Below, one piece after another: positions 5,302 to 54,953 of a DNA stretch of 64,000 bases (within the stretch, counting starts at the first letter, position 1; each line of letters starts with the position of its first letter). The stretch is taken from the NCBI GenBank assembly GCA_937910695.1, contig CALEMW010000039.1, positions 1 through 64,000 of the forward strand, in the 5' to 3' direction. The translations under genes and the position numbers were made by a program. This DNA comes from an uncultured bacterium (GTDB lineage Bacteria > Krumholzibacteriota > Krumholzibacteriia > LZORAL124-64-63). The notes beneath the pieces were generated by a model. It did no database searches and was not told the DNA's origin. It worked only from the letters and a program-made list of their open reading frames with translations.

Positions 5302-6237
5302 TCAGGATTCGGGCCCAAAGGCGAATTCGACCGTGAACCTGTGCTGAGAATCGATCCCCTCCTGCACCATAGCCTCATAGGCGTAGCCGATCCCGATGGT
5401 CCCCTTGCTGAATCCGGCGCCGAAGGTCAATCCCTGAGACTCATAATTCACCTTGCTCCCGACTCGCAGGGACAACGCCGGCACGAGGCGGTATTCGGCC
5501 CCCACATGGGCTTTCTCGGTGCCGTCGTTGGGGAAAATGACATCGCCGGCGAGGGTCAGCTTGCCGTCCAGGACCTCCAGCTGGGGATCCAAGGCCATCC
5601 CGAGTCGCAGAACCGTGGGCAACGGATAGGGCTCGGCATCGACGGTGAAGTCCGAACCGACATTCGTGTACGAAGCCCCGAACCAAAGGCCTTCGATGAG
5701 GGCCTTGTGCGAGATGAAGAAATCAAAGGCGAATCCGGTGCCGGCATGAATATCGATCTCTTCGTGCAGGATTTTCACGCCAGCCCCCACGGCCAGACGC
5801 TCGTTGATCCGACGGCCGAACGTCACGCCTAGCGATATCTGCTGGGGCGCAAAGGTGCCGACGGTCTCACCGATGCTCTCCTCGGTCGTGCGGTCGATGT
5901 CGTCGGCATAGAAGCCGGAAAAAATAACTCCCAACGCTCCTAGGGGGGTGCGGTGGGACAATACCGCCGTCTCCCTGTCGAACAGGCCGAAGCTCCTCTG
6001 GTGCTGGAGCAGCAGGTCGGTTCCATCGTCCTGGAACGCCAGCCGCGCTGGATTCCAATACACTGCAGCGGCATCGTTCGATGAAGCCACGCCGGCGCCG
6101 CCCATCCCTGTCTCTCTGGCTCCCACGGGAAAACGCAACGACAGAAAGCCCGACTCACCCGGCGTGCCCGCCAGAGCCATCCCCGCCAGCAACAGCAGGA
6201 CCATGCCCGCAACCATCAACCTGGGTCCGTTCTTCAT
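5302..6237 (-). CDS. PorV/PorQ-family outer-membrane beta-barrel protein
   Basis: 311 residues with a clear signal peptide (MKNGPRLMVAGMVLLLLAGM). The mature start has the family pattern G-x-x-FL-x-x-R-FPVGARETGMGGAGVA followed by SNDAAAVYWNPARLA, typical of the PorV/UPF0164 family. The rest alternates as beta strands to a barrel-like C-terminus ending in aromatic strands (HRFTVEFAFG). In Bacteroidota PorV is the outer-membrane shuttle of the type IX secretion system, but distant relatives have other or unknown roles. It lies directly downstream of a large secreted protein with a type-IX-like C-terminal domain, which fits a secretion link. The start is chosen at 6237, with AAGGA seven bases upstream, over an upstream ATG that would put charged residues before the signal. 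Confidence 0.8.
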   Translation of the reverse strand: MKNGPRLMVAGMVLLLLAGMALAGTPGESGFLSLRFPVGARETGMGGAGVASSNDAAAVYWNPARLAFQDDGTDLLLQHQRSFGLFDRETAVLSHRTPLGALGVIFSGFYADDIDRTTEESIGETVGTFAPQQISLGVTFGRRINERLAVGAGVKILHEEIDIHAGTGFAFDFFISHKALIEGLWFGASYTNVGSDFTVDAEPYPLPTVLRLGMALDPQLEVLDGKLTLAGDVIFPNDGTEKAHVGAEYRLVPALSLRVGSKVNYESQGLTFGAGFSKGTIGIGYAYEAMVQEGIDSQHRFTVEFAFGPES

Positions 6238-6317
6238 TCCTCGATCCTTTCTAGGCGCCGTCACGACGGCCATCTCTCTTCAACACCGTCACAGTATCGC
6301 TGTGGTGGCCTTGGACA

Positions 6318-9300
6318 TCAACGCTCGATCGCCGCGGGTTTCACGATCACACTGCGCTCCCCGCCCCCTTGGACGATCATTTTACAGAAGTAGGTTCCGC
6401 TGACAGCACCGCCGACGTCGAGGACCGCCTCTGCGGGCTCTCCGGCCACGGCCGTGACGATCTCACTGCGTGCGACCTCTTCACCCTCGAGATTATACAA
6501 GATCGCCGAAAGAGTGCCCCCGTGGTTCAGGCGAACCCTGGCATACAGACGATCACCGCTAGCAGGTGTCGGGTAGAGCGAAACACTGCCCTCTTCGACC
6601 AGGGCTTGGCCACCGGGAATGGGCGACTGCTCAGGCGCCTGGTTGGTTCGTTCGGGGGTTCCACCCCACATCGGCCAGATGACGTCAGCTTGATCAGTAC
6701 CGGGCAGTTCCCACACGACAAGACGAGAAACGAGTTCAGTGACGGCATTCTCTCCGGGATCGTGTTCGAGGAGACGAGGCATCGTCCCGACTGCAACGAG
6801 CTCGAGCCCCGGCGATCCGTCCAGATCCATGACCAGCGGCGTCGCCGCCGTTTCACCAGGCCCTGCCAGAGGCCAGCCGGGAACCACATCGCCACGCTCA
6901 TCCACGAGGTAGAGACGTCCGTCTGGAGCTGCAAAAACCGTCATCTCCTTATCGGCCACTCTCCAGGCCAGAGGGCTGACAGCCGCTCGGGCGGCAGCGG
7001 TCCGCACATCGTTGACCGGTATGGCGGGCCATGAGGTTTCCGGTGCGCCGAAACGCCCCGACTTGACGAAGGCGTCGTCGCTCGCGTAGACGACGCCAGG
7101 TGCCATGGGTGACCGCACGGGGAAACCGTTGTCCCAAACACGCGCTCCGTCACGTCCCACATGAAGACACCCACCGTCGCTCATGGGGACCAGCAACCCG
7201 TCGTCTAGAGCCAAAGGAGGCCACGGAGAGGGGCGCCCTGAAAACTCGGTCAGCAACCCCTCGCCGGTGAGCGCGCCCGGCGAGCTGACATAACCGCCTT
7301 GACCATCGTAACCGATGGAAATGAGATGGCCATCCCACGTCACCGGACCGGGCAGGTCCCCCATGCCTGGAAAAGCCCTGTTCATGCCGGGCACAGAGAC
7401 AACCCTGTCGCCGGCAGCATCATAGAGCTCGTAAAAGAAACTCGAGATCGTATCGGTGTCTTGGTGGTCCTCGTTGAGGGTCGCCACGAGCCTTGGCCCG
7501 GCGACGGGCTCATCCGCGAAGGATGCCGCCAAGATCGCCGGAGTGCCCACCCTGCGAGTGATCGTGCCCGACACGGGTGCCGCCAACCCGTGACTGTCCG
7601 GGTCGAAGTCGCCGTCTCGGACTTCCGAACCATCAGCATGGAACATGTAGGTCCCGCCGGGACCGTTGACGATGATCTCGACGGATCCATCGTCATCCAC
7701 GTCCGCTGCAGCCGGCGCTCCCGTCCAGGTGACCGCATCACCGAGTGCGTCGGTTCCGGTCGTCAAATGGCCAAGAGCCTCTCCCCCTTCCAGCATGGGC
7801 GAGAGGTCGTGATGCCAGGCGAACACCCTGCCGTCCACATCCACCGCCACGATTTCCAGAGTACCGTCCGGCGGCGAATCCAAGTCGACGGCCAGGAGAT
7901 GGCTTCCTCGCAGGTCGATCCCCGGCAGATCCAAGGAAGCCGATTCGAGCGGCCGTCCGGTCTCCGGAGCCTCCTTGCGGCAACGGAACGTCATGCTGTC
8001 GGCGTAGATCAGCACCGGCCAAGGAACTTCGGGCACGACGACAGCGGAATCCACAACGACCTCGGATACCGCGTCGATCACGATCCCGGTCCACGCCCCG
8101 CCCGCCGTCGCTGTGCTCGGAAGCGTCTCCGGGCCGAATAAATCGTGATCCTCACCACGGAAACTGTCGTCGTCCCCACCAAGCATCCAAGGCGAGGGTC
8201 GCCGGGAGTCGAGGTCCTGGAGGCCGTCGGCTTCTTCGAGATCGATGGATTTCCGTTGAGGATCCGCGTTGAAGACATTGCTCTCTGCATCCAGAGCCCG
8301 GGAGATCACACCCTCGTCCACATGCCAGATATAGAGACCACTGCCGGCCCCCTTCACGCCCGGTGCCCGCGCTAAATTGTCGCTCATGAAGAAGTCCCAC
8401 TCGCCTGCGGAGAGAACCTCCTTGATGTGCAACTCAGGATCGAAAGTCGCCAGTACGACTCCTTCGTCAGACCACGGGGAAAACGTCTCGTCGTCGATAC
8501 GGGTGAAATCGGGGACGCCATTGCCGTTTCGGTCGTCCCCGAAGGAGAAGATCCTGTTCCCATCGGGATCCTGGAGACGGTACTCGACCAGCCAATATTC
8601 GCTCGGACCGATAGCGATGCGTGCAAGGGTCGAATCGGCTCCGGCGTGCTCGGCGGGAAAGAGCGAAAAAGTGCCACCAACGTCGGGATCAATGTCGTAA
8701 GGCTCGAGCCAGCCCATCAGCATCTTGTTGAAAGCGCAAGGTTCCGTCGGAATCAGGCCGCCGGCCGCGAAAAGGCCGTAACCCATCAGACCGAACTGGC
8801 CGATTCCCTGGCTGTCGGGATTACCCGAAGGCGTGAAGTCGCTCAGAGAGAGCATACCGAGCCGCAGGCCGACTTCGAAGCAATACACACCCATCGAGCC
8901 GAAATAACCGCCCAAGCCACCGGCCGAGTCCTGATATTCCGTTTCGGGAAGCACCAGAACGTGTTGGATTCGGCCCGCGACCCCTTCGTCGGTTTCAAGC
9001 CAGGGGTCGACCAGGATCTCATCTTCGACTGCAGCGAGGAAATCCTCGGGGCTCAGGTAACTGCTGTAGATCTGTTCGGGCGAGTTGCCGAGTACATCGG
9101 TTTCCTCTCCCGCCCCCGCATGGATTACCATCACGGTATCGTAGAGGCCGAAGTCCACCAGATGATCCGTGGCGGCGACCACGTCTGCGACAAGCTGGAT
9201 CTTCTGCTCACCCTCGTCGGGATGGTTGCCGTACCAAGCCATCGGATGGGGCAGGTTGGCCACTTCTCCCACCACAGTGACGTTCAAATCGAAACGTCCG

Positions 9301-9710
9301 CCGCTGGCGGCTTCGAAATAGCGTGAGATATCATCGAGAAGATGAACGAAGTAGATCGAATCATGAGCCGAATAGAGAAACTCTGTCTGAGCTGGCGCAG
9401 GGAATTCTCCCGGCAATTCTCCATGACGACCGAACATCAGGCTGTCGGAAAAATCACACATCAGAAGCACTGCTTCCAGCCTGTCGGGGGCCTTCTGTCC
9501 GAATAGTCTCTGCTTCTGAAGCATGGTCGAGCCGTCGCTGTGCAATTGATTCACGACATGCTCAGGATGGGGATACACAGCCGCCCGAGTCAGGACATCG
9601 CCCGCCGATACACTCGTGACGAGTCCGCACAGGAACATGGTCATCAGCATCATCGGCACCCGACACGGCTGAATTCCGCTCGAAGAACATCGAAATGCGG
9701 ATCGGGGCAT
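6318..9710 (-). CDS. Large secreted M6-peptidase-like protein with destroyed active site, propeller region and C-terminal sorting domain
   Basis: 1,130 residues. A signal peptide (MMLMTMFLCGLVTSVSAG) is followed by an M6/immune-inhibitor-A-like region (about 60-480). The landmark after the zinc helix is kept (GQFGLMGYGLFAAGG, then PCAFNKMLMGWLEP), but where M6 enzymes have HExxH this protein reads F-E-V-G-L (about residues 278-282). Both zinc histidines are lost, so it should not be catalytic. Residues about 530-1020 contain FG-GAP/propeller-like repeats (AAADVDDDGSVEIIVNGPGG; MDLDGSPGLELVAVG). The last 90 residues resemble a type-IX-like sorting domain (SLYPTPASG ... LYNLEGEEVARSE ... SGTYFCKM). 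The ATG at 9710 is chosen since the upstream part overlaps a promoter. The gene sits next to the PorV-type barrel. Confidence 0.82.
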   Translation of the reverse strand: MPRSAFRCSSSGIQPCRVPMMLMTMFLCGLVTSVSAGDVLTRAAVYPHPEHVVNQLHSDGSTMLQKQRLFGQKAPDRLEAVLLMCDFSDSLMFGRHGELPGEFPAPAQTEFLYSAHDSIYFVHLLDDISRYFEAASGGRFDLNVTVVGEVANLPHPMAWYGNHPDEGEQKIQLVADVVAATDHLVDFGLYDTVMVIHAGAGEETDVLGNSPEQIYSSYLSPEDFLAAVEDEILVDPWLETDEGVAGRIQHVLVLPETEYQDSAGGLGGYFGSMGVYCFEVGLRLGMLSLSDFTPSGNPDSQGIGQFGLMGYGLFAAGGLIPTEPCAFNKMLMGWLEPYDIDPDVGGTFSLFPAEHAGADSTLARIAIGPSEYWLVEYRLQDPDGNRIFSFGDDRNGNGVPDFTRIDDETFSPWSDEGVVLATFDPELHIKEVLSAGEWDFFMSDNLARAPGVKGAGSGLYIWHVDEGVISRALDAESNVFNADPQRKSIDLEEADGLQDLDSRRPSPWMLGGDDDSFRGEDHDLFGPETLPSTATAGGAWTGIVIDAVSEVVVDSAVVVPEVPWPVLIYADSMTFRCRKEAPETGRPLESASLDLPGIDLRGSHLLAVDLDSPPDGTLEIVAVDVDGRVFAWHHDLSPMLEGGEALGHLTTGTDALGDAVTWTGAPAAADVDDDGSVEIIVNGPGGTYMFHADGSEVRDGDFDPDSHGLAAPVSGTITRRVGTPAILAASFADEPVAGPRLVATLNEDHQDTDTISSFFYELYDAAGDRVVSVPGMNRAFPGMGDLPGPVTWDGHLISIGYDGQGGYVSSPGALTGEGLLTEFSGRPSPWPPLALDDGLLVPMSDGGCLHVGRDGARVWDNGFPVRSPMAPGVVYASDDAFVKSGRFGAPETSWPAIPVNDVRTAAARAAVSPLAWRVADKEMTVFAAPDGRLYLVDERGDVVPGWPLAGPGETAATPLVMDLDGSPGLELVAVGTMPRLLEHDPGENAVTELVSRLVVWELPGTDQADVIWPMWGGTPERTNQAPEQSPIPGGQALVEEGSVSLYPTPASGDRLYARVRLNHGGTLSAILYNLEGEEVARSEIVTAVAGEPAEAVLDVGGAVSGTYFCKMIVQGGGERSVIVKPAAIER

Positions 9711-9764
9711 GCCGGGACCTTTCAGGCTCGATTCATAGACTTTTTGCAGATCACAGGAACTGGT

Positions 9765-9794
9765 ATGATAGGACCGAAGGTCGTTGACAGTCAA
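9765..9794 (-). promoter_or_regulatory. Sigma-70 promoter for the M6-like gene
   Basis: Read on the minus strand: TTGACT, an 18-base spacer, then TATCAT (5 of 6 matches in each box). It lies about 50 bp upstream of the ATG at 9710, which supports that start. The rest of 9795-9994 shows no gene. Confidence 0.6.
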
Positions 9795-9994: not shown

Positions 9995-11782
9995 TCATTT
10001 CTTATTCGTCCCGCCCCCGCTCTTGGACGAACCGGAACTCTTGCCGCCACCTTTCGATTTGCTCGAGCTCGAACTGCTGCCGGAGCTTTTCCCGCTGCCG
10101 GACGACTGCGGCTTGGACGCCGGCTTGCTGCCGCCTGTGCTCGGCTTGGGCTTGACGGCCTGCTGGGGGCTCCTGCTCGATCCCTTCGACCTCTCGGGCT
10201 TGATCTGCGGCCTCTGGGTCGGCCTGGATCGGCTGGGCGTGTCGTTCCTCGGCTTGACGGTGCTGCCGTCCCGGGAGCCGGAGCTGCCACCATTCCAGAT
10301 CCGCGAACCCTTGGAGCGGGGCTCCACAGGTCGAACCCGGGGACTGTCCTGATCCTTGCGGCCAGGAGTCGTCGGTCGGACGCGGTCGTCGTTCCTGGGA
10401 CTGGCACCCTCGCCCTTCATGATGTTGCCGGCTCCACCTTCGGGACGCGGTTTCGTCGCCGCAGCTCCGCCTCCGCTTGCCGAGCCTGTGCCGATGGTCC
10501 CTGGAGAATCCATGCGCGGGACCCTCAAACCACCACGGCGCTCTTCACGTTGGGGTTCGGGAATCTTCTTATGATCCCGCTTGATCTTCGAGACATCGGT
10601 AAATCGATCCCTTGCCGGCTTGACCGCCTGGTTCCGTGCGACCTCCGCTCGCGGCTGCTTCTGCAGCGCTACGCGGCTCTCCATCGCATCCCTCATCTCC
10701 TTCGACGGCCGGGGGGTCTTGCCCAAACCGCGAGGATTTCTGTAGTCGTCCCTCCCGGAGGCCTCCTTGTAACGAACCTCCTTGCCGAGGGGTCGATGGC
10801 GGCGGCTTCCGCCCTGATAGCGGACCCAGACGTCGCCGCTCCAGTAAGGGGAGTAGTTCCAGGCGTAACAGTCCCAGCCCCAGCCCCAGGCCACGTTCGG
10901 CCAGGAGTACCACGGCCGGTACCAGTAGTTCACCCAGGGACGCCAGGTCCAAGGATCGACGTAGTAGTAGACCGGGTAGTAGTAGACCGGGTAGGAGCCG
11001 TAGTTGGCGTACCAGTCGTTGTCCCAGCCGTAGTTGTGGTGAATCTCGATGGTGCAGACGTCGCGGTACGGATGGATGTCCAAACCGTCGTCGTGACACT
11101 GGCTGCACAGATATCGGGGGTGATCCACACGACTTCCCACGTACCAGCTCGTGTAGTTGGAGACAACGAAATCCTCGGCCTCCTCAAGGCCTGTGATTTC
11201 ATAATTGACGTCGTTCATGGCCAGGAAGGGATCTCCTGCGACATAGTACCTGAGCGGCTGATCGGCCTGCTCGTGATGGAAATCAATCTGGAGATCGCGC
11301 AGATCGAACGGATATGCGGAAACGAGAACCTGGACATACTCGATCCCGTCCTCCCCGGCCGTCCGCAATCGACGACTGCCCGGTGCCGGCAGGTTGTAGG
11401 TGTTGTTGGCGAAGACGAATCCGTCGTCGAGCCGGCTGCGCGGCCAGAGAATGTCGACCTCGCCCTCGCTGTCAATGCGATAGGCGACAGCGTAGGCATC
11501 GTAGTTCGTCTCGAAGTGCAGCCGCACCGATTCACCCTTGCGGTAGACTTCGTCCTCTTCACGGTCGTGCCAGACGTTTACTCGCAAGACCTGGTTTTCG
11601 TAGCCTTGCCAGCCCTGGGCCATGGCGTCTTGCAAACGCTCATCTTGGGCTCGGGCGGTTACGACGCCCAGGACCAAGGCAATGATCGCCGTCGTCAGTG
11701 CCAGGACCAGATGGTCCGCTCGGCGTGACGGCTTGTTCGCGATGGCCTGTGCGGTTGTCTGTCGTTCGCTTCGAATGTTCAT
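9995..11782 (-). CDS. Exported DUF4384-like protein with CxxCH motif, Trp/Tyr-rich segment and basic low-complexity tail
   Basis: 595 residues. A membrane or signal segment (about 25-45, ALTTAIIALVLGVVTARA) is followed by a DUF4384-like domain (about 65-180; LRVNVWHDREEDEVYRKGE, VRLHFETNYDAYAVAYRID). A single CxxCH lies at C226-H230 (LCSQCHDDG), which could bind heme c in the periplasm or be a metal knuckle. Residues about 250-320 are extremely rich in Trp and Tyr (PVYYYPVYYY, PWYSWPNVAW). The last 270 residues are Arg/Lys/Ser/Gly/Pro low complexity and very basic. ATG at 11782 has GGAGG six bases upstream (GTG at 11785 is possible). It lies 30 bp after the lipoprotein gene, so both probably share the sigma-54 promoter at 12741. 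The role is unknown; surface or envelope binding is inference. Confidence 0.8.
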   Translation of the reverse strand: MNIRSERQTTAQAIANKPSRRADHLVLALTTAIIALVLGVVTARAQDERLQDAMAQGWQGYENQVLRVNVWHDREEDEVYRKGESVRLHFETNYDAYAVAYRIDSEGEVDILWPRSRLDDGFVFANNTYNLPAPGSRRLRTAGEDGIEYVQVLVSAYPFDLRDLQIDFHHEQADQPLRYYVAGDPFLAMNDVNYEITGLEEAEDFVVSNYTSWYVGSRVDHPRYLCSQCHDDGLDIHPYRDVCTIEIHHNYGWDNDWYANYGSYPVYYYPVYYYVDPWTWRPWVNYWYRPWYSWPNVAWGWGWDCYAWNYSPYWSGDVWVRYQGGSRRHRPLGKEVRYKEASGRDDYRNPRGLGKTPRPSKEMRDAMESRVALQKQPRAEVARNQAVKPARDRFTDVSKIKRDHKKIPEPQREERRGGLRVPRMDSPGTIGTGSASGGGAAATKPRPEGGAGNIMKGEGASPRNDDRVRPTTPGRKDQDSPRVRPVEPRSKGSRIWNGGSSGSRDGSTVKPRNDTPSRSRPTQRPQIKPERSKGSSRSPQQAVKPKPSTGGSKPASKPQSSGSGKSSGSSSSSSKSKGGGKSSGSSKSGGGTNKK

Positions 11783-11812
11783 CACACACCTCCTCGCTCG
11801 TCGTTTCCAGGG

Positions 11813-12703
11813 TCAGAAGCGGACAAAGTCCACGCGAGCGTTGGATTGGTCCCGGTTGGCGGGTGCGCGCAACTCGGGGTTGTCCTCGTCGGTCTGGTAG
11901 GCCCAGTCGATCCGGACACGATTAGCTTCGAGATCCGTCACCTGGAACTTGGCGAAATGGATTCCCTGGCCGGCGATCCTGACGATGTAGGAATGCCCAT
12001 CGATCAGCTCGGCGCGGCCCGCCGCCGAATATCCGTTGCGGGGCGCATAGTCCACCCAGGCCAGCAGAATGGTGCCGTAGTCCTGGAGTTGGACGTCCGC
12101 ATCGACCGTGACCACCCAGGGGATACCACCGTCGTCGTACTCGACGAAGATATCTGTGGCTGGATTGTTCCAGGCCCGGGCTATCGACATCTGGTCGGAA
12201 AAATCGAATCCGCTCTGCGTCCATTGTGGACCCCGGCTGTCATGCAGCCAAACGTCGTATCCCTCGGGACGCGGCGTATCGAAGACATCTTCATAGCTCA
12301 GGTTGCTCTCGTTACCGCTTTCGTCTACAGAAAGGACGGCATAGAGATAGGTCTCGCCATTGTTGACTTCGTAGTCGTCAAACCAATGCGTCAGTGAAGC
12401 CGGGTCGTAGTTCTCGTTCCATGAGACTTCACCGATGAGATGGTATTCGTTGGGATCGGTGATGCTGTCGTCATGACGATAGATCCGGTAAAGGACCAGG
12501 TCCGATTCATCGATGTCGTTCCAGACGACGGTCACAAGCGCATCACCCGTAATGGAGTAGACACCCGTTGGGACTGCAGGCACGATATCAACCACGTTGG
12601 CGGGATCGTCGTCGCAGCCGCTCAGGGACATGCCGAGGATTGCCGTCAGTAGGGTGATCAGCAAGATCCTGATCTCGTGACTCTGTGCTTTCTCTCTGAT
12701 CAT
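11813..12703 (-). CDS. Lipoprotein with fibronectin-III-like domain
   Basis: 296 residues. The start is an ATG with GGAGG seven bases upstream, then a signal segment ending in lipobox LSGC (ITLLTAILGMSLSGC), so it is predicted to be lipid-anchored. Residues about 30-135 look like a fibronectin type III fold (VPAVPTGVYSITGDALVTVV, YRIYRHDDS, YLYAVLSVDESGNES). The C-terminal 150 residues (GYDVWLHDSRGPQW onward) are a beta-rich domain I do not recognise. A sigma-54 promoter lies about 40 bp upstream, and the DUF4384-like gene follows at 30 bp. The pair probably makes an envelope or surface structure controlled by the neighbouring sigma-54 activator; that is inference. Confidence 0.82.
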   Translation of the reverse strand: MIREKAQSHEIRILLITLLTAILGMSLSGCDDDPANVVDIVPAVPTGVYSITGDALVTVVWNDIDESDLVLYRIYRHDDSITDPNEYHLIGEVSWNENYDPASLTHWFDDYEVNNGETYLYAVLSVDESGNESNLSYEDVFDTPRPEGYDVWLHDSRGPQWTQSGFDFSDQMSIARAWNNPATDIFVEYDDGGIPWVVTVDADVQLQDYGTILLAWVDYAPRNGYSAAGRAELIDGHSYIVRIAGQGIHFAKFQVTDLEANRVRIDWAYQTDEDNPELRAPANRDQSNARVDFVRF

Positions 12704-12740
12704 GTCGTCACCTCCGTTCCATGTCGTGTACATCCCATAA

Positions 12741-12756
12741 GGCATGAGTCGTGCCA
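12741..12756 (-). promoter_or_regulatory. Sigma-54 (-24/-12) promoter of the lipoprotein/DUF4384 operon
   Basis: On the minus strand the site reads TGGCACGACTCATGCC. The -24 part TGGCACG is perfect, the four-base spacer is correct, and the -12 part is ATGC instead of TTGC. The start of transcription would be near 12730, giving a leader of about 27 bases that contains the ribosome-binding site of the lipoprotein gene. Confidence 0.72.
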
Positions 12757-12835
12757 GCATGATCCCTTGTAGTTCAACACTACCGGATTCGCCCACAGCA
12801 CAAATGTATTTGGCGTATTTGGAGCTAGTTAGCGG

Positions 12836-12851
12836 ACTTCAAGCCTGAAGT
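12836..12851. promoter_or_regulatory. Perfect dyad, possible activator site for the 12741 promoter
   Basis: ACTTCA-AGCC-TGAAGT is a perfect 6+4+6 inverted repeat about 80-95 bp upstream of the -24 box, the usual distance for a sigma-54 activator binding site. No protein is known to bind it. Confidence 0.35.
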
Positions 12852-12949
12852 TCGAGCGGGTGGAATACATTAATCATCAGAGGCATATGTGGCAGGATTG
12901 TCCTCACCGGGAAGCATTCGTCTCCGGGAAAGGACGCTGGGTCGAGAAC

Positions 12950-13029
12950 AAAAAAAGAAAGAGCCACAGCCCAGGAGAAGCTGATTCCGGTCCTGAGTCT
13001 CGCCCCTACAGGATCGGGTGGCTCTTTCT
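12950..13029 (-). terminator. Intrinsic terminator / structured RNA 3' end
   Basis: On the minus strand AGAAAGAGCCAC (13029-13018) pairs perfectly with GTGGCTCTTTCT (12967-12956), followed at once by a run of seven T (12956-12950). The 50-base interior can form two smaller stems (TCCTG/CAGGA and CAGC/GCTG), giving a branched shape. It closes a short transcription unit starting near 13275. No known riboswitch class was recognised. On the plus strand there is no T run, so it works in one direction only. Confidence 0.7.
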
Positions 13030-13142
13030 AAGAAGAATAGCAATGTCGAGAAAGGCATCGGATGGGGAACGGGTTCACTCGCTTTCGGCACCCGGTCCCT
13101 GGGTCGACCTGGACCCCACCTCCAGATCGTCATGGAACGAGC

Positions 13143-13256
13143 CTAGTTGTTGAAAACTTCCTCATCCAGCCGGTTGACGATGAGGGCGTGAACCTCGTTC
13201 CCCTTCCGAATTCTTTCTTGTCTTAGGTCGTCCGAGCCAATCGCTTGTCCCTGCAA
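13143..13256 (-). CDS. Possible 37-residue small protein under a sigma-54 promoter
   Basis: TTG start at 13256 with a perfect GGAGG four bases upstream, and only about 19 bases after the predicted sigma-54 transcription start; it ends at a TAG at 13145-13143. The product would be short, charged and helical (begins MQGQAIGSDDLRQER, ends NRLDEEVFNN) with no signal peptide or Cys. Position, ribosome site and the downstream terminator support a real gene. The rare start codon and the lack of a recognised family speak against. The alternative is that the transcript is a non-coding RNA. Confidence 0.4.
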   Translation of the reverse strand: MQGQAIGSDDLRQERIRKGNEVHALIVNRLDEEVFNN

Positions 13257-13285
13257 CTGACCTCCGGTCTTCCTGCTTTCATTAC

Positions 13286-13301
13286 AGCATGCGATATGCC
13301 A
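13286..13301 (-). promoter_or_regulatory. Sigma-54 (-24/-12) promoter of a short transcript
   Basis: On the minus strand: TGGCATATCGCATGCT. It fits TGGCAYR-N4-TTGCW except A for the first T of the -12 box, the same deviation as in the 12741 promoter. The predicted start near 13275 and the terminator at 12950 define a transcript of about 325 bases. Confidence 0.6.
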
Positions 13302-13374
13302 CTTATGGAAATGCAGCAACAATAGAGTCAACCTGTTGTTATTATTCATGTTAGGGCACGTAATGAGTGATGGT

Positions 13375-13397
13375 TCGAGTGGTACGAAATGACTCGA
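13375..13397. promoter_or_regulatory. Interrupted palindrome, possible activator site for the 13286 promoter
   Basis: TCGAGT-N11-ACTCGA lies about 75-95 bp upstream of the -24 box. The surrounding 13302-13510 is AT-rich and otherwise empty; together with the sites listed, this accounts for the gap between the lipoprotein gene and the activator gene (12704-13510). Confidence 0.3.
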
Positions 13398-13510
13398 TCA
13401 GGAAACAATATTAATAGCAACTCCCGGGACGCTCCAACCGGATACAACTACGCAAGTTACATGTAGTAATTATATTGATCCACAAACTCGAAATGTTCGC
13501 ATTGAGGGAG

Positions 13511-16500
13511 TCAGGAAGGACCGATGCCGTAGATCCGAATCTTCTTCAGCAGGTTCGGGTAACTGATCCCGAGCAGGCGGGATGCATGGGCCTTGTTGCC
13601 CCCGGTGACCGTGAGGGCATGAGTGATCTCACGGCTCTCCACGGCCTGAAGGGTCTTTTTGAGGGGTGCCACTGGCCCGCCGTTGTCACGATTGAGAGCA
13701 AGTCCTGCAAGCTTCGGCGGCAGGTATTCGAGACGCAGCATGCTGTCCCCGTTGGCCAGAACGATGGCCCGGTTAAGCGTTTTTTCCAGCTCCCGGACAT
13801 TGCCCGGCCAATCATAGCGTACCAGAGCGTCCATGAAGGAAGACGTCATACCCGGCGGGGGCATTGCGGTTCCCTTAATGTAGCGCTCGATGAAATAGGG
13901 TGCGAGCAACATGATATCATCGGCTCGTTGACGCAGGGGCGGTACCTGGATCGGGAAATCCAACATGCGATAGTAAAGGTCCTCGAGAAATTCGTTCCGA
14001 TCGACTTTACCCTTCAGGTCGGCCTTGGTGGCGCAGACGATCCGGACATCCACCTTCTGCTCTTGGTTCGATCCCACCGGCCGTACGGTCTTCGAGTCCA
14101 GGAAATGAAGCAGCTTGCCCTGCATGCCGATCGGGAGCTTACCGATCTCATCCAGGAATACGGTGCCGCCTTCGGCCTCTACCAATAATCCCTTTTTGTC
14201 CCCATAGGCTCCTGTGAAACTGCCTTTGACGTGCCCGAAGAGTTCGCTCTCCATAAGCATCTCGGGAATAGCAGCACAGTTGATGGCCATGAACTTCCGC
14301 TCGGAACGGCTGCTCAGAGCGTGGATGGAGTAGGCGAGCAAGCCCTTCCCTGTTCCCGTTTCGCCATGCACCAGCACGGTCAGTTCACTCGGAGCGACCC
14401 GTGTGATCAGGGCCAGCATCTCGAGCATGTCCTTGTTGCCGGTAATGATGTTGTCAAAGCAATCGATCCGTTCCTGGACCGTGACGATCGAACGATCGCG
14501 GCTTTCTTCGCAGATGTAACGGCGGTCGGCGAGAGCCAAGGCCAGGAAACCCATGGAAGTGGTCAGGAATTCGAGGGCGGGCTTCAAGGAGATGCCCTCG
14601 GGAGACTCGTTGCCTAGTGCGAGTCCCAAAAGCCCCAACAGCCGGCCCTTCAAGGAAACGGGAACGAGCAGGCAGCTCTTCAGGGTCAGTGAGATGCCCG
14701 GAACGGTTGCAAGAATCTCATGATCGTCCTCCAGCCGGGTCATCAGGACGGGTCCGGTTTCGTCGCGCTGGGCAAACCAGGTCGCGATTCCGACGGCGAG
14801 ATCCCGAGGAAGTCCGGCAAGAGTATCGACTTGGACGGCATTGGTTGTCAGGTCGAATCTGGCAATGAAGCCACGGTCGGCTCCTGTGCGGCTCAAGGCC
14901 GACTTCAACACCGGCATGAGATCGAGATCGGGCTCTTTGCCGCCGCGGACGAAATCCGAAACTGAGGACACAGCGGAAACGTGCCGCTGGAAATCCTCCA
15001 TCCCGCCGACCACGCCACTTTCTGCACGTCGTCGGATATCAGCAGTGATGTGGGACAAGGTATCGGAGCCGTTGGCTCCTACGATTCGCTCCAGCTCGCT
15101 GATGGTGATCAGAACTTCGTCATGCAGTTCGAGCCTCAGCAGAACCTCGGCGAGTCCGACCTGCAAGCGGCAGAACAAATCGTCACTGCTGCGGGCGCCT
15201 TCGTCTTCGAGAACATGGTCGATCAGTTGCCGCAGATAGCGGAGCGTTCCTTCGTTCGCCGAGTCGATCACGCCGTGTAGGTAGTGGAGAATCGCCTCAC
15301 AGGTCTGGCGCGGTAAACGCTGGCTCTGGAAGGTCTTGATGGCTTCGCGGTAGGAGGCGTCCGACTCCTCGGCTCGATCGAGATGCTGGTAGGCCTGCCC
15401 TAGGGTCAGGTGACAGAAGCCGAGCTCGTAGTCTTCACCGCAGGAGGAACAGACAGCCAGCGCGGCTTGAGCGGATTCCGCAGCTTTGTCCCAGGCGCCT
15501 TGTTTGGCGTAGGCCTGGGCGCAGCGCCGCAACAACTCACCCTCGAGGTCGGTGACCGTACCGATGTGGCGGGTCTTGTCGAGACCCAGACCGTAGTTGT
15601 AAAGCGCTCGATCATACTCGCCACGGCAGAGCAGGATGTCTCCCATGTATTCGTCGGCAATGGTCGATTCCCGGAGGAAGCCGGCCTGATCCGAAAGATG
15701 TTTGCCTTCCAGGATCAGCTCTTCTGCTCGGACCAGATTGCCATCGAGCATTTCGAGGTATCCGAGAGAGAGATTGACCTTGGACTGGCGGTCGACATCG
15801 CCGAGGCTGCGGGCCAGTCGCAGACATTTTCCGAGGCTGGCGCGGGCTTCGCCGTGTCGTTCGGACTTGCGAAGGATGATGCCCTCGTTCAGATAGAGCC
15901 GCGCGAGAAGATGAGTGGCGCCGTGGGCGTTGGCCAACTTGATGGACTTGCGCTGCTCGTCGAGGGCCTGATCCCAGAGACAGGCGTTCTTGCGCAGATT
16001 CGCGAGATTGCTATGCAGGATCGCCATGCCGAGATCGTCGTTGATCCGTCGGAAGGTCGCAAGGGCGTCCATGTAGAACTCTTCGGCCTTGTCGAGACGG
16101 CCGAGACGGTGGTGGCAGACACCCATCGTTACCTGGAGGTTGGCGACCTCGCGGTGATCGTCGGTGACGGCCAGAACGGCGAATGCGTGCTTGGCTACCC
16201 TCAAGGCATCACGATAGGCGCTGCGCTGGGTGAACAGACTTGCCTGACGGCCGAGAATGGGAGCCAGGAGGCGCTGGCGGTCCTGGGGATCGTTTTCGGT
16301 GATCTGCTCGAACAGCTTGAAGGCGCGGTGCAGCAGCTCCTCGGCGAAGGCGAGATCGCCGACGTTGAGCGAAGCGTCAATGCATTTGACCAGGACCCGA
16401 AGGCCGTGTCCCGGATCATCAGCCATCTCTCTGGTCGCATCGAGAAGTCGTTGGTAGTAGTCGAGGGCGGAGGAGAACGCCGAGGCTTCAAAATGGAGAT

Positions 16501-16609
16501 CGCCGATTTCCTCGAGACGCACCAAGGCATCATGATCCAGTCGAGCGTTCAGATCGACTCGATCCTTGTCATGACGTCGGTTGCGTTCCGATCGATGATC
16601 CATCGACAT
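13511..16609 (-). CDS. TPR-GAF-AAA+ sigma-54-dependent transcription activator
   Basis: 1,032 residues. The first about 480 residues are tetratricopeptide-type helical repeats (ALDYYQRLLDATREM, ANLQVTMGVCHHRLGRLDKA and others). Then comes a GAF-like sensor region (about 540-700), an AAA+ sigma-54 interaction domain (about 720-960) and a Fis-type HTH (about 1001-1028, NKAHASRLLGISYPNLLKKI). Walker A is GETGTGKG (749-756), the sigma-54 contact loop reads GSFTGA (796-801), Walker B is TVFLDEIG (about 816-823), and PLRQRADDI and WPGNVREL are present. There is no receiver domain, so activity is probably set by ligand or protein binding to TPR/GAF. It reads toward two sigma-54 promoters within 770 bp downstream, its likely targets. 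Confidence 0.92.
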   Translation of the reverse strand: MSMDHRSERNRRHDKDRVDLNARLDHDALVRLEEIGDLHFEASAFSSALDYYQRLLDATREMADDPGHGLRVLVKCIDASLNVGDLAFAEELLHRAFKLFEQITENDPQDRQRLLAPILGRQASLFTQRSAYRDALRVAKHAFAVLAVTDDHREVANLQVTMGVCHHRLGRLDKAEEFYMDALATFRRINDDLGMAILHSNLANLRKNACLWDQALDEQRKSIKLANAHGATHLLARLYLNEGIILRKSERHGEARASLGKCLRLARSLGDVDRQSKVNLSLGYLEMLDGNLVRAEELILEGKHLSDQAGFLRESTIADEYMGDILLCRGEYDRALYNYGLGLDKTRHIGTVTDLEGELLRRCAQAYAKQGAWDKAAESAQAALAVCSSCGEDYELGFCHLTLGQAYQHLDRAEESDASYREAIKTFQSQRLPRQTCEAILHYLHGVIDSANEGTLRYLRQLIDHVLEDEGARSSDDLFCRLQVGLAEVLLRLELHDEVLITISELERIVGANGSDTLSHITADIRRRAESGVVGGMEDFQRHVSAVSSVSDFVRGGKEPDLDLMPVLKSALSRTGADRGFIARFDLTTNAVQVDTLAGLPRDLAVGIATWFAQRDETGPVLMTRLEDDHEILATVPGISLTLKSCLLVPVSLKGRLLGLLGLALGNESPEGISLKPALEFLTTSMGFLALALADRRYICEESRDRSIVTVQERIDCFDNIITGNKDMLEMLALITRVAPSELTVLVHGETGTGKGLLAYSIHALSSRSERKFMAINCAAIPEMLMESELFGHVKGSFTGAYGDKKGLLVEAEGGTVFLDEIGKLPIGMQGKLLHFLDSKTVRPVGSNQEQKVDVRIVCATKADLKGKVDRNEFLEDLYYRMLDFPIQVPPLRQRADDIMLLAPYFIERYIKGTAMPPPGMTSSFMDALVRYDWPGNVRELEKTLNRAIVLANGDSMLRLEYLPPKLAGLALNRDNGGPVAPLKKTLQAVESREITHALTVTGGNKAHASRLLGISYPNLLKKIRIYGIGPS

Positions 16610-16676: not shown

Positions 16677-16988
16677 TCAGGGCACTATGATCAGCATCTG
16701 GCACAAGGTCACGAACAGAGACACGGTGTCATCCTCAATATCCCAACTCACTGACGAGCCATTGCTCTGGTCTCCCCCCGTGATGCCCGTACCACGGTTC
16801 CCCGTGATCAGGTCGTCGGGATCACCATATTGGATGACGACTTCGTTCCCAGAACCCACCTGAATAGTCGAAGCGTCCTGGCCCTGTTCAACGGCGACGA
16901 TTGTCACATCCTCGCCAGCGGCCGCGAACGCTGTCGACCCTGCAAGAAGCAGGAACAGCGCGACAGAGAGTGTCCAACGTGTACTCAT
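16677..16988 (-). CDS. Small secreted protein of unknown function
   Basis: 103 residues with a clear signal peptide (LSVALFLLLAGSTAFAAAG). The mature part of about 80 residues is acidic and Gly/Asp/Ser-rich (ITGNRGTGITGGDQSNGS), with one Cys near a hydrophobic C-terminus (TLCQMLIIVP). I do not recognise a family. It lies between the NtrX-like regulator and the TPR-GAF activator on the same strand, so it may be a target or signal of one of them. There is no -24/-12 site in the 110 bp upstream, but a perfect dyad is present at 17048-17062. Confidence 0.65.
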   Translation of the reverse strand: MSTRWTLSVALFLLLAGSTAFAAAGEDVTIVAVEQGQDASTIQVGSGNEVVIQYGDPDDLITGNRGTGITGGDQSNGSSVSWDIEDDTVSLFVTLCQMLIIVP

Positions 16989-17098: not shown

Positions 17099-18490
17099 TC
17101 AATCGATTCGCTCATCGGTTTGGCCCCGTTCGCCGTCTGCCTGAGTCTGCAGCTCATAGCGGGTGATCTTCTTGTAGAGGTTACTCCGCTGCATCCCGAG
17201 GGTCTCAGCAGTCTTGCTGACATTGTATTGATTTTCGATGAGTTTGGCCTGAAGAAACGAGGCCTCGGAACGAGCTTTGAACTCCTGGAAATCGTTGCAC
17301 ATCAGAATGTTGTCGTCATTGCTTGAACTGTGCCCCTCCCCCGTGATATCGGGTGGTAGGTCGGAGATCAGGATGGTTTCACCACGACTGAGGATCAGTA
17401 GACGTTCCACCAGGTTCCGCAGTTCGCGGACGTTGCCCGGCCAGGGGTGCCGGCGCAGGATGTCTAACGCGTCTGGTGAGATCTGTTTAACTGGGATTTT
17501 GGTCTGCCGGGAAAGTTCGAACATGAAATGGCTCAGGAGCAATTCGGTGTCGTCGCCTCGCTCACGCAACGGCGGCAGATGCACGGACAAGACATTGAGT
17601 CGGTAGAACAGATCACGGCGGAATCTGGAATCAGGGCCGGTCAGATCACGGTTCGTGGCAGCGACGATGCGGACATCCACTTCGCGAGGCTGCCGCCCGC
17701 CCACGCGTTCAAAACGACTTTCCTCGACTGCTTTGAGGACCTTGGCCTGGGCCTCTTCGCTCATGTCGCCGATTTCATCGAGGAACAGGGTTCCGCCATC
17801 GGCCTGTTCAAACTTGCCGATTCTTACCCGGTCAGCCCCAGTGAAGCTGCCCTTTTCGTGCCCGAAGAGCTCGCTCTCTACGAGGTCCTTGGGAATTGCG
17901 GCGCAGTTGACTTCGACGAGCGGCTTGTCCCGACGATGACTCGCAGCATGCAGGGCGCGGACGACGAGTTCCTTGCCCGTTCCATTCTCCCCGGTGATCA
18001 GTACGGTTGCATCGGTGGATGCAACACGAGTGATGAAATCCTTAACCTCGTGCATGCCCGGGCACTCGCCGACCAGGGGAGAGTCTCCCCCGGCGCGACT
18101 ACGCCACTCCCGCGCCTGATCACGGAGCTGGTGATGATTGAGACTGTTGGCGAGTGTGAGCAGGAGACGCGAGCGATCGAGGGGCTTCTCGAGGAAGTCG
18201 TAAGCCCCCTTTTTGACAGCCTCGACGGCAGTCTCAATGTTACCGTGGCCCGAGGCGACAATGACCGGAAGGTCGAGTCCCAGCTGGCGGATCCGATCAA
18301 GGACTTCGAAACCGTCCATGCCGGCCATCTTGACGTCGAGCAGCATGGCGTCGACTTTTTCCTCCTCGAGGATCCTGAGGGCTTCGACGCCTCCGGGTGC
18401 GGTCAGCACCCGGTAGGACTCATAGGTGAGGATCTGATCGAGGGCGGTGCGGATCGCAGCCTCGTCATCGACCACCAGGACGGTGTGCAA
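17099..18490 (-). CDS. NtrX/NtrC-family sigma-54 response regulator
   Basis: 463 residues: a receiver domain (VLVVDDEAAIR; phosphoacceptor D52 in LLDVKMAG; conserved Lys in LEKPLDRS), an AAA+ sigma-54 domain (GENGTGKE, HEKGSFTGA, TLFLDEIGDM, PPLRERGDD, WPGNVREL) and a Fis-type HTH. The C-terminal pattern EFKARSEASFLQAKLIENQ then SNLYKKI resembles NtrX more than NtrC. The TTG start at 18490 is chosen because GGAGG lies six bases upstream; an in-frame ATG at 18532 has none. No histidine kinase gene is next to it, so the partner is elsewhere. It starts divergently from rlmN. Confidence 0.9.
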   Translation of the reverse strand: MHTVLVVDDEAAIRTALDQILTYESYRVLTAPGGVEALRILEEEKVDAMLLDVKMAGMDGFEVLDRIRQLGLDLPVIVASGHGNIETAVEAVKKGAYDFLEKPLDRSRLLLTLANSLNHHQLRDQAREWRSRAGGDSPLVGECPGMHEVKDFITRVASTDATVLITGENGTGKELVVRALHAASHRRDKPLVEVNCAAIPKDLVESELFGHEKGSFTGADRVRIGKFEQADGGTLFLDEIGDMSEEAQAKVLKAVEESRFERVGGRQPREVDVRIVAATNRDLTGPDSRFRRDLFYRLNVLSVHLPPLRERGDDTELLLSHFMFELSRQTKIPVKQISPDALDILRRHPWPGNVRELRNLVERLLILSRGETILISDLPPDITGEGHSSSNDDNILMCNDFQEFKARSEASFLQAKLIENQYNVSKTAETLGMQRSNLYKKITRYELQTQADGERGQTDERID

Positions 18491-18599
18491 GATCGACCTC
18501 CGGTCCGCCGCTGGACGTGCGGCGTGGATCATGGGATGTTAACGTTCAGGGTGCATGGTGCGCCGAACACCTGTCAAGATCATCCGGTTGCGGAGGACC

Positions 18600-53020: not shown

Positions 53021-54052
53021 TCAGTCTCGACGGTTGTCGACAAGGGAGGGATCGAGTTGCAGGACGATGCCCCATTCGACATCGGCGTCTTCTCGGCGGC
53101 CTAATTTGAGCAACATCGCAACCCGATTGTTGCGCAAGGCAGCGCTCTGAGGAGCAAGGGCAATGGCGCGTTCTACAAGAAACAAGGCGGATTCATCCTC
53201 TCCTGCCTCGAAACAGATCAAGGACGCCAGCCCCCAGAAGTCCGCGCCGTCATCCTCGACACCCCCTGAAACCGCCAGGGCCAAGGCCCGTGAGTCATCT
53301 CCCAATTGTTGATCGGCTTCCAGGACGATTCGTCGCTCGTTGGCACTCAAAGCATCGGGCCAGAGATTCAGAAGCATGGCGCGGGCTGCTTCGGGTTGGC
53401 CCGTCTTGAGCAGGATCAAAGCCATCTGCTCCCGAGTCTCCGATGTTGGATTGCTACCATGAAGAATCGTGATGTAAGGAAGAGCGCGGTTGTAATCCCT
53501 ACGAACCAAGGAGAGGCGCACCAAGGCCCTAGCCACATCCGGGCAATCGGAGCAACGGGTTTCGGCTTCCTCGAGGATTGAGGCGGCACGGTCGATCTGC
53601 TCGTAATCCAACAGGACATGGCCGAACTCCACACGCACGGACCAATCGTCCAGCGCCAGGGAGCAGGCGTCCCGGTACTCGGAAAACGCACGGCCGCGTT
53701 TACCGAGTTGAAGCAGCAGATGAGCGAGATTGCGGTGGTTGACGGGATCTTGCTGAGCCCAGAGAACAGCTCGTTCCAGGTGAGGCAAAGCCTCTTCGAA
53801 ACGCCCTAAGGCCTGATAGGCCAGGCCCAGACGTTGTTCGAGGGGCCACAGGACCTCGGCTCCGAGACGGTCGTCGTTCAACAGCGGCGGCAAGAGTTCG
53901 ACGACCTCGTCCGCCCTTCCGCATGCAAGAAGAGAATCTGTTGTCGCCATGACCTCCTGCAAACGGTCCACACGCTGGCTCCAGTTCGGATTAGCGAACA
54001 CGAAACCGGCCGTCATGACCAAAACGAGAACACAGGCCTTGGCGTTCATCAT
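53021..54052 (-). CDS. Exported TPR protein
   Basis: 343 residues, signal peptide (ACVLVLVMTAGFVFA) and then about eight TPR-like repeats (LGLAYQALGRFEEALPHLER, RNLAHLLLQLGKRGRAFSEY, LICFEAGEDESALFLVERAI, RNNRVAMLLKLGRREDADVE). It lies among secreted-protein genes in the 50.8-58 kb patch. The role is unknown; TPRs are protein-binding. The start is divergent from the gene at 54240. Confidence 0.8.
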   Translation of the reverse strand: MMNAKACVLVLVMTAGFVFANPNWSQRVDRLQEVMATTDSLLACGRADEVVELLPPLLNDDRLGAEVLWPLEQRLGLAYQALGRFEEALPHLERAVLWAQQDPVNHRNLAHLLLQLGKRGRAFSEYRDACSLALDDWSVRVEFGHVLLDYEQIDRAASILEEAETRCSDCPDVARALVRLSLVRRDYNRALPYITILHGSNPTSETREQMALILLKTGQPEAARAMLLNLWPDALSANERRIVLEADQQLGDDSRALALAVSGGVEDDGADFWGLASLICFEAGEDESALFLVERAIALAPQSAALRNNRVAMLLKLGRREDADVEWGIVLQLDPSLVDNRRD

Positions 54053-54239: not shown

Positions 54240-54953
54240 ATGGTGACCAGTCGACGCATGTCCTCACATACTGTCTTGATCGCTGTGATTGGATCGTTCG
54301 TGTTGATGCCGGGTATCGCTTCTGGCTTCCAAAGCAACCACAATGCCATGGACATGGTCTGGAACTCGAGTTCGTTCGATTGCGAGTCCGTAGCGATGAC
54401 CCTTGTGGATGATTTCGTTTGGGAATGTGTCGCCCCAGCTCCATCAGCCGAGACGTACTATCTTCAGTTTTGGCCCGGAAGCAGCATGGAGCCCAAATAC
54501 GGAGCCGATATCAACGATCCCCTGGGGCTCATTCTGGACGACGATCCCAGTCAGGTTCCCGTCTCCCTGGCTAACTCGGGGTACTACACGATCCGTCTCC
54601 TGGAAGCCGCGCCCTCCTTCGAACTTGTCGGTGCTCCCGGCTCCATCGTTGTGAGTCTGGTTTTCAGCGATGATCCCATCTCACCCCCCACAGATTCATC
54701 AGTCATGGTGCTGGACCTGGATTTCGACATTATGTTAGGATTCTTCACAGTCGGCGGGGGCACTGGAATCGACGTTGTGAATTTGATACCTGATCACACA
54801 TACCGCCTGAGTGTGACAGCGACCGGCTACCGTGACGAATCCTTGACGGTGAGCGTACCGGATGCCAGCCCGGTTCCGGTGACCGTGGCCCTCGACCGAC
54901 TTGTCGCCAATGAGAACACCACTTGGAGCGGGTTCAAGGCCTTATTCCGTTGA
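54240..54953 (+). CDS. Secreted protein with C-terminal WxxFKxxFR tag
   Basis: 237 residues: signal peptide (TVLIAVIGSFVLMPGIASG), a beta-rich acidic body with two Cys and a late carboxypeptidase-regulatory-like stretch (YRLSVTATGYRDESLTVSVP), ending ANENTTWSGFKALFR. The C-terminus matches that of the 51896-52879 protein; the rest does not. The ATG at 54240 is chosen because earlier ATGs fall inside or next to the promoter; GGA lies five bases upstream. The glycosidase-like gene follows at 38 bp on the same strand. Confidence 0.72.
   Translation: MVTSRRMSSHTVLIAVIGSFVLMPGIASGFQSNHNAMDMVWNSSSFDCESVAMTLVDDFVWECVAPAPSAETYYLQFWPGSSMEPKYGADINDPLGLILDDDPSQVPVSLANSGYYTIRLLEAAPSFELVGAPGSIVVSLVFSDDPISPPTDSSVMVLDLDFDIMLGFFTVGGGTGIDVVNLIPDHTYRLSVTATGYRDESLTVSVPDASPVPVTVALDRLVANENTTWSGFKALFR

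Follow-up and report, generated by a model that had tools for sequence, protein, structure and literature searches.

We analysed a 64,000-nucleotide stretch of contig CALEMW010000039.1 (hereafter the window), belonging to an uncultured bacterium of the phylum Krumholzibacteriota whose draft genome comprises 4.14 Mb and is 94% complete. The locus studied contains a gene for a bacterial enhancer-binding protein (EBP), i.e., a sigma-54 activator, with TPR and GAF domains, and the region downstream of it. Results of the comparison with related genomes pointed to a sigma-54 regulatory module retained across a bacterial phylum, in which the TPR-GAF EBP would open two promoters: A, predicted to produce a structured non-coding RNA of about 325 nt that may act in trans, and B, in front of a putative envelope operon. 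Taken as a whole, we regard this explanation as likely. The coordinates of all the features are given in Table 1.

A Pfam search of the activator revealed the domains TPR_12, GAF_2, Sigma54_activat (PF00158, E 9e-63), AAA_lid_14 and HTH_8 (PF02954, E 9.5e-9), with a TPR array of about 500 residues preceding GAF. The motifs GETGTGK, GSFTGA and GGTVFLDE were all intact, consistent with a preliminary description of the window that had reported intact GSFTGA and Walker motifs. The protein thus presents the features that define an EBP: an AAA+ sigma-54 interaction domain with Walker A and B motifs and a GAFTGA-type loop, and a Fis-type DNA-binding HTH. The loop, in the form G[SA]FTGA, was kept in the activators of 40 of 41 loci, and the genome of the window has one sigma-54 gene (rpoN). 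NorR and NifA were among the best NCBIfam matches, none of which reached its family cut-off; activators of these types share the GAF sensor, the AAA+ domain with the GAFTGA loop and the Fis-type HTH, whereas the TPR array ahead of GAF distinguishes the protein described here.

The activator was found at E<=1e-90 in 73 of 80 sampled genomes, the same 80 having been sampled for the phylum and for the class, and in 45 of the 46 good assemblies among them. Orthologs were full-length with 47-55% identity in most genomes of its own family (fragments in some broken assemblies) and showed 33-38% identity in other families of its class. The order of the block was largely kept in 40 extracted loci, as far as contig ends and similarity allowed synteny to be read: rlmN, an NtrC-type regulator, the TPR-GAF activator, a gap, the lipoprotein, the DUF4384 protein and the M6-like protein. 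A wider search of genome contigs for related loci gave a single weak TPR match in Spirochaetales. One relative carries a second copy of the activator (G012:C1:2050693-2053695), 45% identical to that of the window and with one in-frame TGA.

Two sigma-54 promoters had been proposed downstream of the activator gene. We scored every position of both strands of the 64 kb with a matrix whose weights were set by us from the published consensus, and these sites ranked second (A) and fifth (B). The predicted starts, counted 12 nt from the GC of the -12 element, fall at about 13275 (A) and about 12730 (B), the latter some 28 nt before the ATG at 12703, which is preceded by a ribosome-binding site that we judged good (GGAGGTGA, 12715-12708). 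In the loci of relatives, the distance from the activator stop codon is about 200-360 bp for promoter A and about 700-1035 bp for promoter B. At least two matches above 9 bits, on the activator strand and no more than 1100 bp downstream, were present in 35 of 41 orthologous loci versus 1.5% of the control windows (n=2262) taken from the same loci. The variant ATGC of the -12 element, noted earlier as common to both promoters, is indeed so in the window but was not conserved, since relatives presented CTGC, GTGC, ATGC or TTGC. In locus L081 the lipoprotein gene is displaced by 3.3 kb and has a sigma-54 site (TGGCATGGCCTATGCG) immediately upstream; therefore promoter B appears to track its gene. 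In this case promoter A stays beside the activator despite the displacement. The locus combines -24/-12 matches, their conservation, candidate activator sites upstream (see below) and an rpoN gene in the genome, as expected of sigma-54 promoters, and we infer that A and B would be transcribed with sigma-54. The strongest sigma-54-like match of the window was at another place, 54333-54348 in the negative strand (TGGCATTGTGGTTGCT, 16 bits), within an open reading frame (ORF) of the opposite strand and some 270 bp ahead of the gene for a TPR protein (53021-54052, negative strand).

When the sequences preceding promoter A were sampled for motifs in 26 family members, a dyad was revealed, TAACnnGTTG-N6-CAACgAgTTAAAA, which begins between -77 and -80 in 18 members. 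When each sequence was scanned with its own copy left out, the dyad was recovered at p<=0.03 in 25 of the 26, with a few best matches elsewhere, around -182 (p-values from 100 dinucleotide-preserving shuffles per sequence, which set a floor of 0.01). The copy of the window scored 10.3 bits (p 0.07) and those of relatives were stronger. The same motif, trained on A only, recurred upstream of B at p<=0.03 in 21 of 25 family loci, where it begins mostly at -90/-92, -102, -122/-124 or -135/-137, a spacing of about one helical turn, and it was also seen in several loci beyond the family (at -86 to -89 for A). Therefore, one activator probably serves both promoters. Its adjacency and the common dyad lend indirect support to the TPR-GAF EBP as that putative activator. 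Two other conserved elements were found: TGTAAAnnnnnTTTATAg near -138 of A (-143 in the window; motif sampling 308 vs 165 for shuffled sequences) and, upstream of B, CGTCCCnTTTTGGGGAannTGTCCc, of the type GTCCC-N5-GGGGA followed by TGTCC, located at -184 to -275 of start B in relatives. Palindromes at 12836-12851 and 13375-13397, previously suggested as activator sites, exist as sequence; they were rejected in that role because they are not conserved, while the dyads at about -78 and -138 of A are.

The term orphan, applied to the activator in the preliminary description, needs care, since a second EBP, an NtrC-type response regulator, adjoins it here and in relatives. This regulator, and not the TPR-GAF protein, might activate A, B or both, and the two EBPs may split or share the promoters; transcription of qrr1 in Vibrio fischeri is activated by two EBPs (PMC10162802). 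In favour of a role for the NtrC-type protein, its gene is kept adjoining the activator and the GTCC-type element is present at promoter B, not at A. However, promoter A immediately follows the TPR-GAF gene in all loci, even where the NtrC-type gene is 2-3 kb away (L075 and L081), and a single dyad is common to A and B. We consider activation by the NtrC-type regulator unlikely and take the TPR-GAF EBP as the probable activator in what follows.

The target of promoter A had been described as a short transcript, whose nature was passed over: a transcript is predicted there, and covariation indicates that it is a conserved structured non-coding RNA. Three parts were distinguished: a 5' hairpin with a CAGGRA loop; a multibranch domain with a closing helix UUCGUGUUUUCGGGAGA/UCUCCCGAAACACGAA around the branches, one of which displays AGAGGUGGGGUCU; and a 3' three-way-junction terminator (AGAAAGAGCCAC...GUGGCUCUUUCUUUUUUU). 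In most family members the 5' loop lies at +16 to +23, counted from the predicted start, and at this near-fixed distance the promoter call and the RNA 5' end support each other. MAFFT and RNAalifold on all 25 family RNAs gave a poor consensus, a problem solved by restricting the alignment to 16 closer relatives; these were chosen after the sequences had been seen, and the resulting model then detected the window and eight others, none of which had been used to build it. In the 16-sequence alignment 33 of 68 pairs presented compensating double changes and 94% of the cells were paired, whereas on no measure did any of 500 shuffles reach the observed value, and a shift of the partners by one column lowered pairing to 49-58%. 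Double changes were seen in 38 of 44 pairs when 24 sequences were aligned to the core model, a fit that leans towards the model, and in the relatives 10 of the 11 pairs of helix 9, the terminator helix, covaried. A simple terminator scan gave no match at the window terminator because its loop limit was 8 nt; the hairpin is plain in sequence and fold.

A covariance model built from the 16 relatives, with the window left out, found the core domain of the window RNA as the only match in the genome (704 kb searched for the E-value) and gave far lower scores on the antisense of the same loci. A second model, from 24 sequences, detected exactly one copy in each of 34 of the 80 genomes, all in families 1 and 5, and the copies adjoined the activator wherever the place was examined. 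Across the unmasked loci, GTGGGG was found 37-259 nt after the predicted start in all 40, and GGCGAG further downstream (226-317 nt) in 36; the motifs are short and therefore some chance matches are expected. The covariance models of Rfam 15, 6S included, gave no credible match at the locus, and the 6S RNA of this genome is encoded on another contig; a known Rfam family and 6S were thus rejected as identities of the promoter-A RNA.

RNAs of the CrcZ or Qrr type act with Hfq. No Hfq was found in any of 58 genomes tested, in which the controls of the search were positive, and an Hfq-dependent small RNA was accordingly rejected. CsrA was present in 40 of the 58, including that of the window and most others of family 1. 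Searches for it were negative in families 6, 7 and 8 and in the majority of family 3; these families retain the locus. Since Hfq is absent and CsrA patchy, neither is likely to be a general partner of the RNA. That the RNA is a sponge of CsrA, like CsrB or RsmZ, could be argued from the CsrA gene in family 1 and from the similarity of the family's 5' loop, (U)UACAGGGAU, to RUACARGGAUGU, the consensus recognized by CsrA. Nevertheless, a single obvious loop is seen here against the many GGA loops of CsrB-type RNAs, and CsrA does not accompany the RNA into all the families that keep the locus; such a sponge is very improbable, and was rejected as a general function. Pairing of GUGGGG with the anti-Shine-Dalgarno end of 16S rRNA was dropped as well, because the flanking bases that it requires were not conserved.

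In families 3 and 7 the organization was different: the GGUGGGGUCU domain ends in its own U-run, i.e., its own terminator. Downstream of this lie a promoter resembling TTGAC...TATAAT and another RNA of high conservation, GUCAGGGGUAU...GGAAUGGCGAGAUCC...AUGGACAUCCCCUCCGGU...CCCCUGAC, and then Us. The second RNA (L129:762-866, L082:9500-9624 and equivalents) presents a GGAAUGGCGAGAUCC hairpin and a AUGGACAUCCCCUCCGGU hairpin between a sigma-70-like promoter and a terminator; its core occurs once per genome, at the activator locus, in most of families 3 and 7, and had no Rfam family match. Pairing between GGUGGGG in the first RNA and CCCCUCC in the second would involve a single U-U mismatch, and we treat this possibility as no more than a lead. 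A broader proposal, which we put forward tentatively and with more doubt than confidence, is that these loci hold a new phylum-wide class of large, Hfq-free, structured regulatory RNA with two conserved G-rich loops, switched by TPR-GAF activators and split in some families into a sigma-54-induced RNA with the GGUGGGG loop and a sigma-70-driven RNA with the CCCCUCC stretch, possibly a decoy and its target.

The arrangement of the loci also bears on a cis-acting role. An RNA upstream of the lipoprotein operon, on the same strand and ending in a terminator hairpin as attenuators do, might be a leader (riboswitch or attenuator) of that operon, reached by readthrough from A. However, promoter B lies between RNA and operon in nearly all loci, the lipoprotein gene displaced in L081 is preceded by a separate sigma-54 site, promoter A having remained next to the activator, and in families 3 and 7 the first domain has its own terminator with the second RNA next to it; there is accordingly little to recommend a leader, which we rate slightly below the CsrA sponge. 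A small protein made from promoter A in place of a functional RNA, for example from the 37-codon TTG ORF ending at 13143 with its GGAGGT ribosome-binding-like site, was rejected as scarcely credible, since no ORF is conserved among 25 family members (the longest ones differ in frame, place, length and sequence) and the base pairs are kept by compensating changes.

We propose that the TPR-GAF EBP, once switched on by its signal, would bind the TAAC...GTTA dyad upstream of both promoters and open them, A yielding the terminated RNA and B the lipoprotein/DUF4384 envelope operon. The RNA would most likely act in trans, with no need of Hfq, by means of two exposed and conserved loops (GUGGGG and GGCGAGA), which might pair with C-rich stretches of mRNAs or titrate an RNA-binding protein; in either case the envelope response would gain a post-transcriptional component, comparable to the part played by CrcZ for CbrB. 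The preliminary description had suggested a local envelope regulon sensed through TPR/GAF, a reading that is partly supported. Its local part, a sigma-54 unit in which the activator would act on its neighbours, is well supported by promoters conserved in position, the common upstream motif and phylum-wide synteny; the envelope part is suggested by the types of genes behind B (lipoprotein, DUF4384, M6-like and PorV/PorQ), and TPR/GAF may sense an envelope signal. Several observations weigh against the proposal: both window copies of the dyad are weak; the NtrC-type neighbour shows equal linkage to the locus in most genomes; matches of the covariance model are confined to families 1 and 5, and homology of the RNA elsewhere is judged from place, promoter and short loop motifs; GGCGAGA is lacking in the loci of families 6 and 8 that were read; and action in trans is suggested by analogy.

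It is uncommon for a large structured RNA of bacteria to be kept throughout a phylum, and the RNAs well known to be under sigma-54 control are proteobacterial regulators linked to Hfq or RapZ. The crcZ gene is located near cbrB, the Qrr RNAs are shorter and Hfq-dependent, and GlmY-GlmZ are under sigma-54 control through GlrR. Our locus resembles each of these systems in part. In Pseudomonas and Azotobacter the sigma-54 EBP CbrB directly activates the non-coding RNAs CrcZ/CrcY together with protein genes, and CrcZ sequesters Crc/Hfq (PMC6296734, PMC6292655). The layout is alike, with an EBP gene near an RNA gene (activation here being predicted), whereas CbrB lacks a TPR array, and the RNA described here, for which no sequence or Rfam relation to CrcZ was found, occurs in genomes without Hfq. 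In Vibrio the EBP LuxO activates the sigma-54 promoter of the regulatory RNA Qrr (PMC10162802), a similar pairing of EBP and RNA promoter; in contrast, our RNA is about 325 nt long and multibranched, in a genome without Hfq, and its putative activator has TPR and GAF and not a receiver domain. The enterobacterial small RNAs GlmY-GlmZ are tied to envelope precursor supply and work with RapZ (PMC7073468); envelope and sigma-54 links, predicted for our locus, are shared, but no relation of the RNAs was found.

A literature search on non-coding RNA in Krumholzibacteria found none. Since the EBP-RNA layout is known and the RNA has no Rfam 15 match, a different build and no Hfq, it appears to be a new RNA family in a known type of circuit. 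The locus thus points to an RNA regulator kept phylum-wide in a little-known bacterial phylum. An unrelated RNA in the same circuit position, in a group without Hfq in all genomes tested, suggests that the switching on of an adjoining RNA by an EBP arose more than once, and that Hfq-free bacteria possess RNA regulators of their own. With promoter, dyad, fold and loops all conserved, the circuit lends itself to a direct test by reconstitution.

Table 1 Predicted features of the activator locus (positions in the window)
Feature	Position	Strand	Basis
TPR-GAF-AAA+-HTH sigma-54 activator (EBP), 1032 aa	13511..16609	minus	Pfam domains; class-wide full-length orthologs; G[SA]FTGA in 40/41 loci
Putative sigma-54 promoter A, -24/-12 TGGCATATCGCATGCT	13286..13301	minus	2nd best matrix match of the window; position conserved
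Putative sigma-54 promoter B, -24/-12 TGGCACGACTCATGCC	12741..12756	minus	5th best matrix match of the window; conserved; displaced-gene site in L081
Weak copy of the conserved dyad (TAACnnGTTG-N6-CAACgAgTTA), first base -80 of start A	13326..13355	minus	Motif sampling and leave-one-out scan
GTCC-type element upstream of promoter B, -208 here	12905..12938	minus	Motif sampling score 491 vs about 240 shuffled
Structured non-coding RNA, predicted start ~13275, U-run end ~12950	12950..13275	minus	Covariation; fold z -3.4; no Rfam match; no conserved ORF
Multibranch core domain, invariant-loop GUGGGG at 13119-13114	13056..13211	minus	Relatives-only covariance model, 49 bits, E 1.8e-8
3' three-way-junction terminator hairpin, GGCGAGA at 13004-12998, then U-run	12950..13029	minus	Sequence and fold; helix 9
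Lipoprotein, first gene behind promoter B	11813..12703	minus	Ribosome-binding site, signal/lipobox; no Pfam match; synteny
DUF4384 protein, second gene behind promoter B	9995..11785	minus	PF14326 E 1.4e-12; synteny
M6-metalloprotease-like secreted protein, next in conserved block	6318..9794	minus	NF052323 E 4e-50, below cut-off; synteny
PorV/PorQ family outer-membrane protein, next in conserved block	5302..6273	minus	NF033709 above cut-off; synteny in some relatives
NtrC-type response regulator, second EBP and rival activator	17099..18532	minus	Response_reg, Sigma54_activat and HTH_8; adjacency to activator kept

Among the genes of the conserved block, the M6-like protein is of the cargo type of the type IX secretion system (T9SS), and T9SS-like features would point to the FCB group. 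Between the two EBP genes, a small predicted secreted protein (16677-16988, negative strand) had no Pfam match, and similar ORFs were seen only in the three closest relatives (L047-L049).

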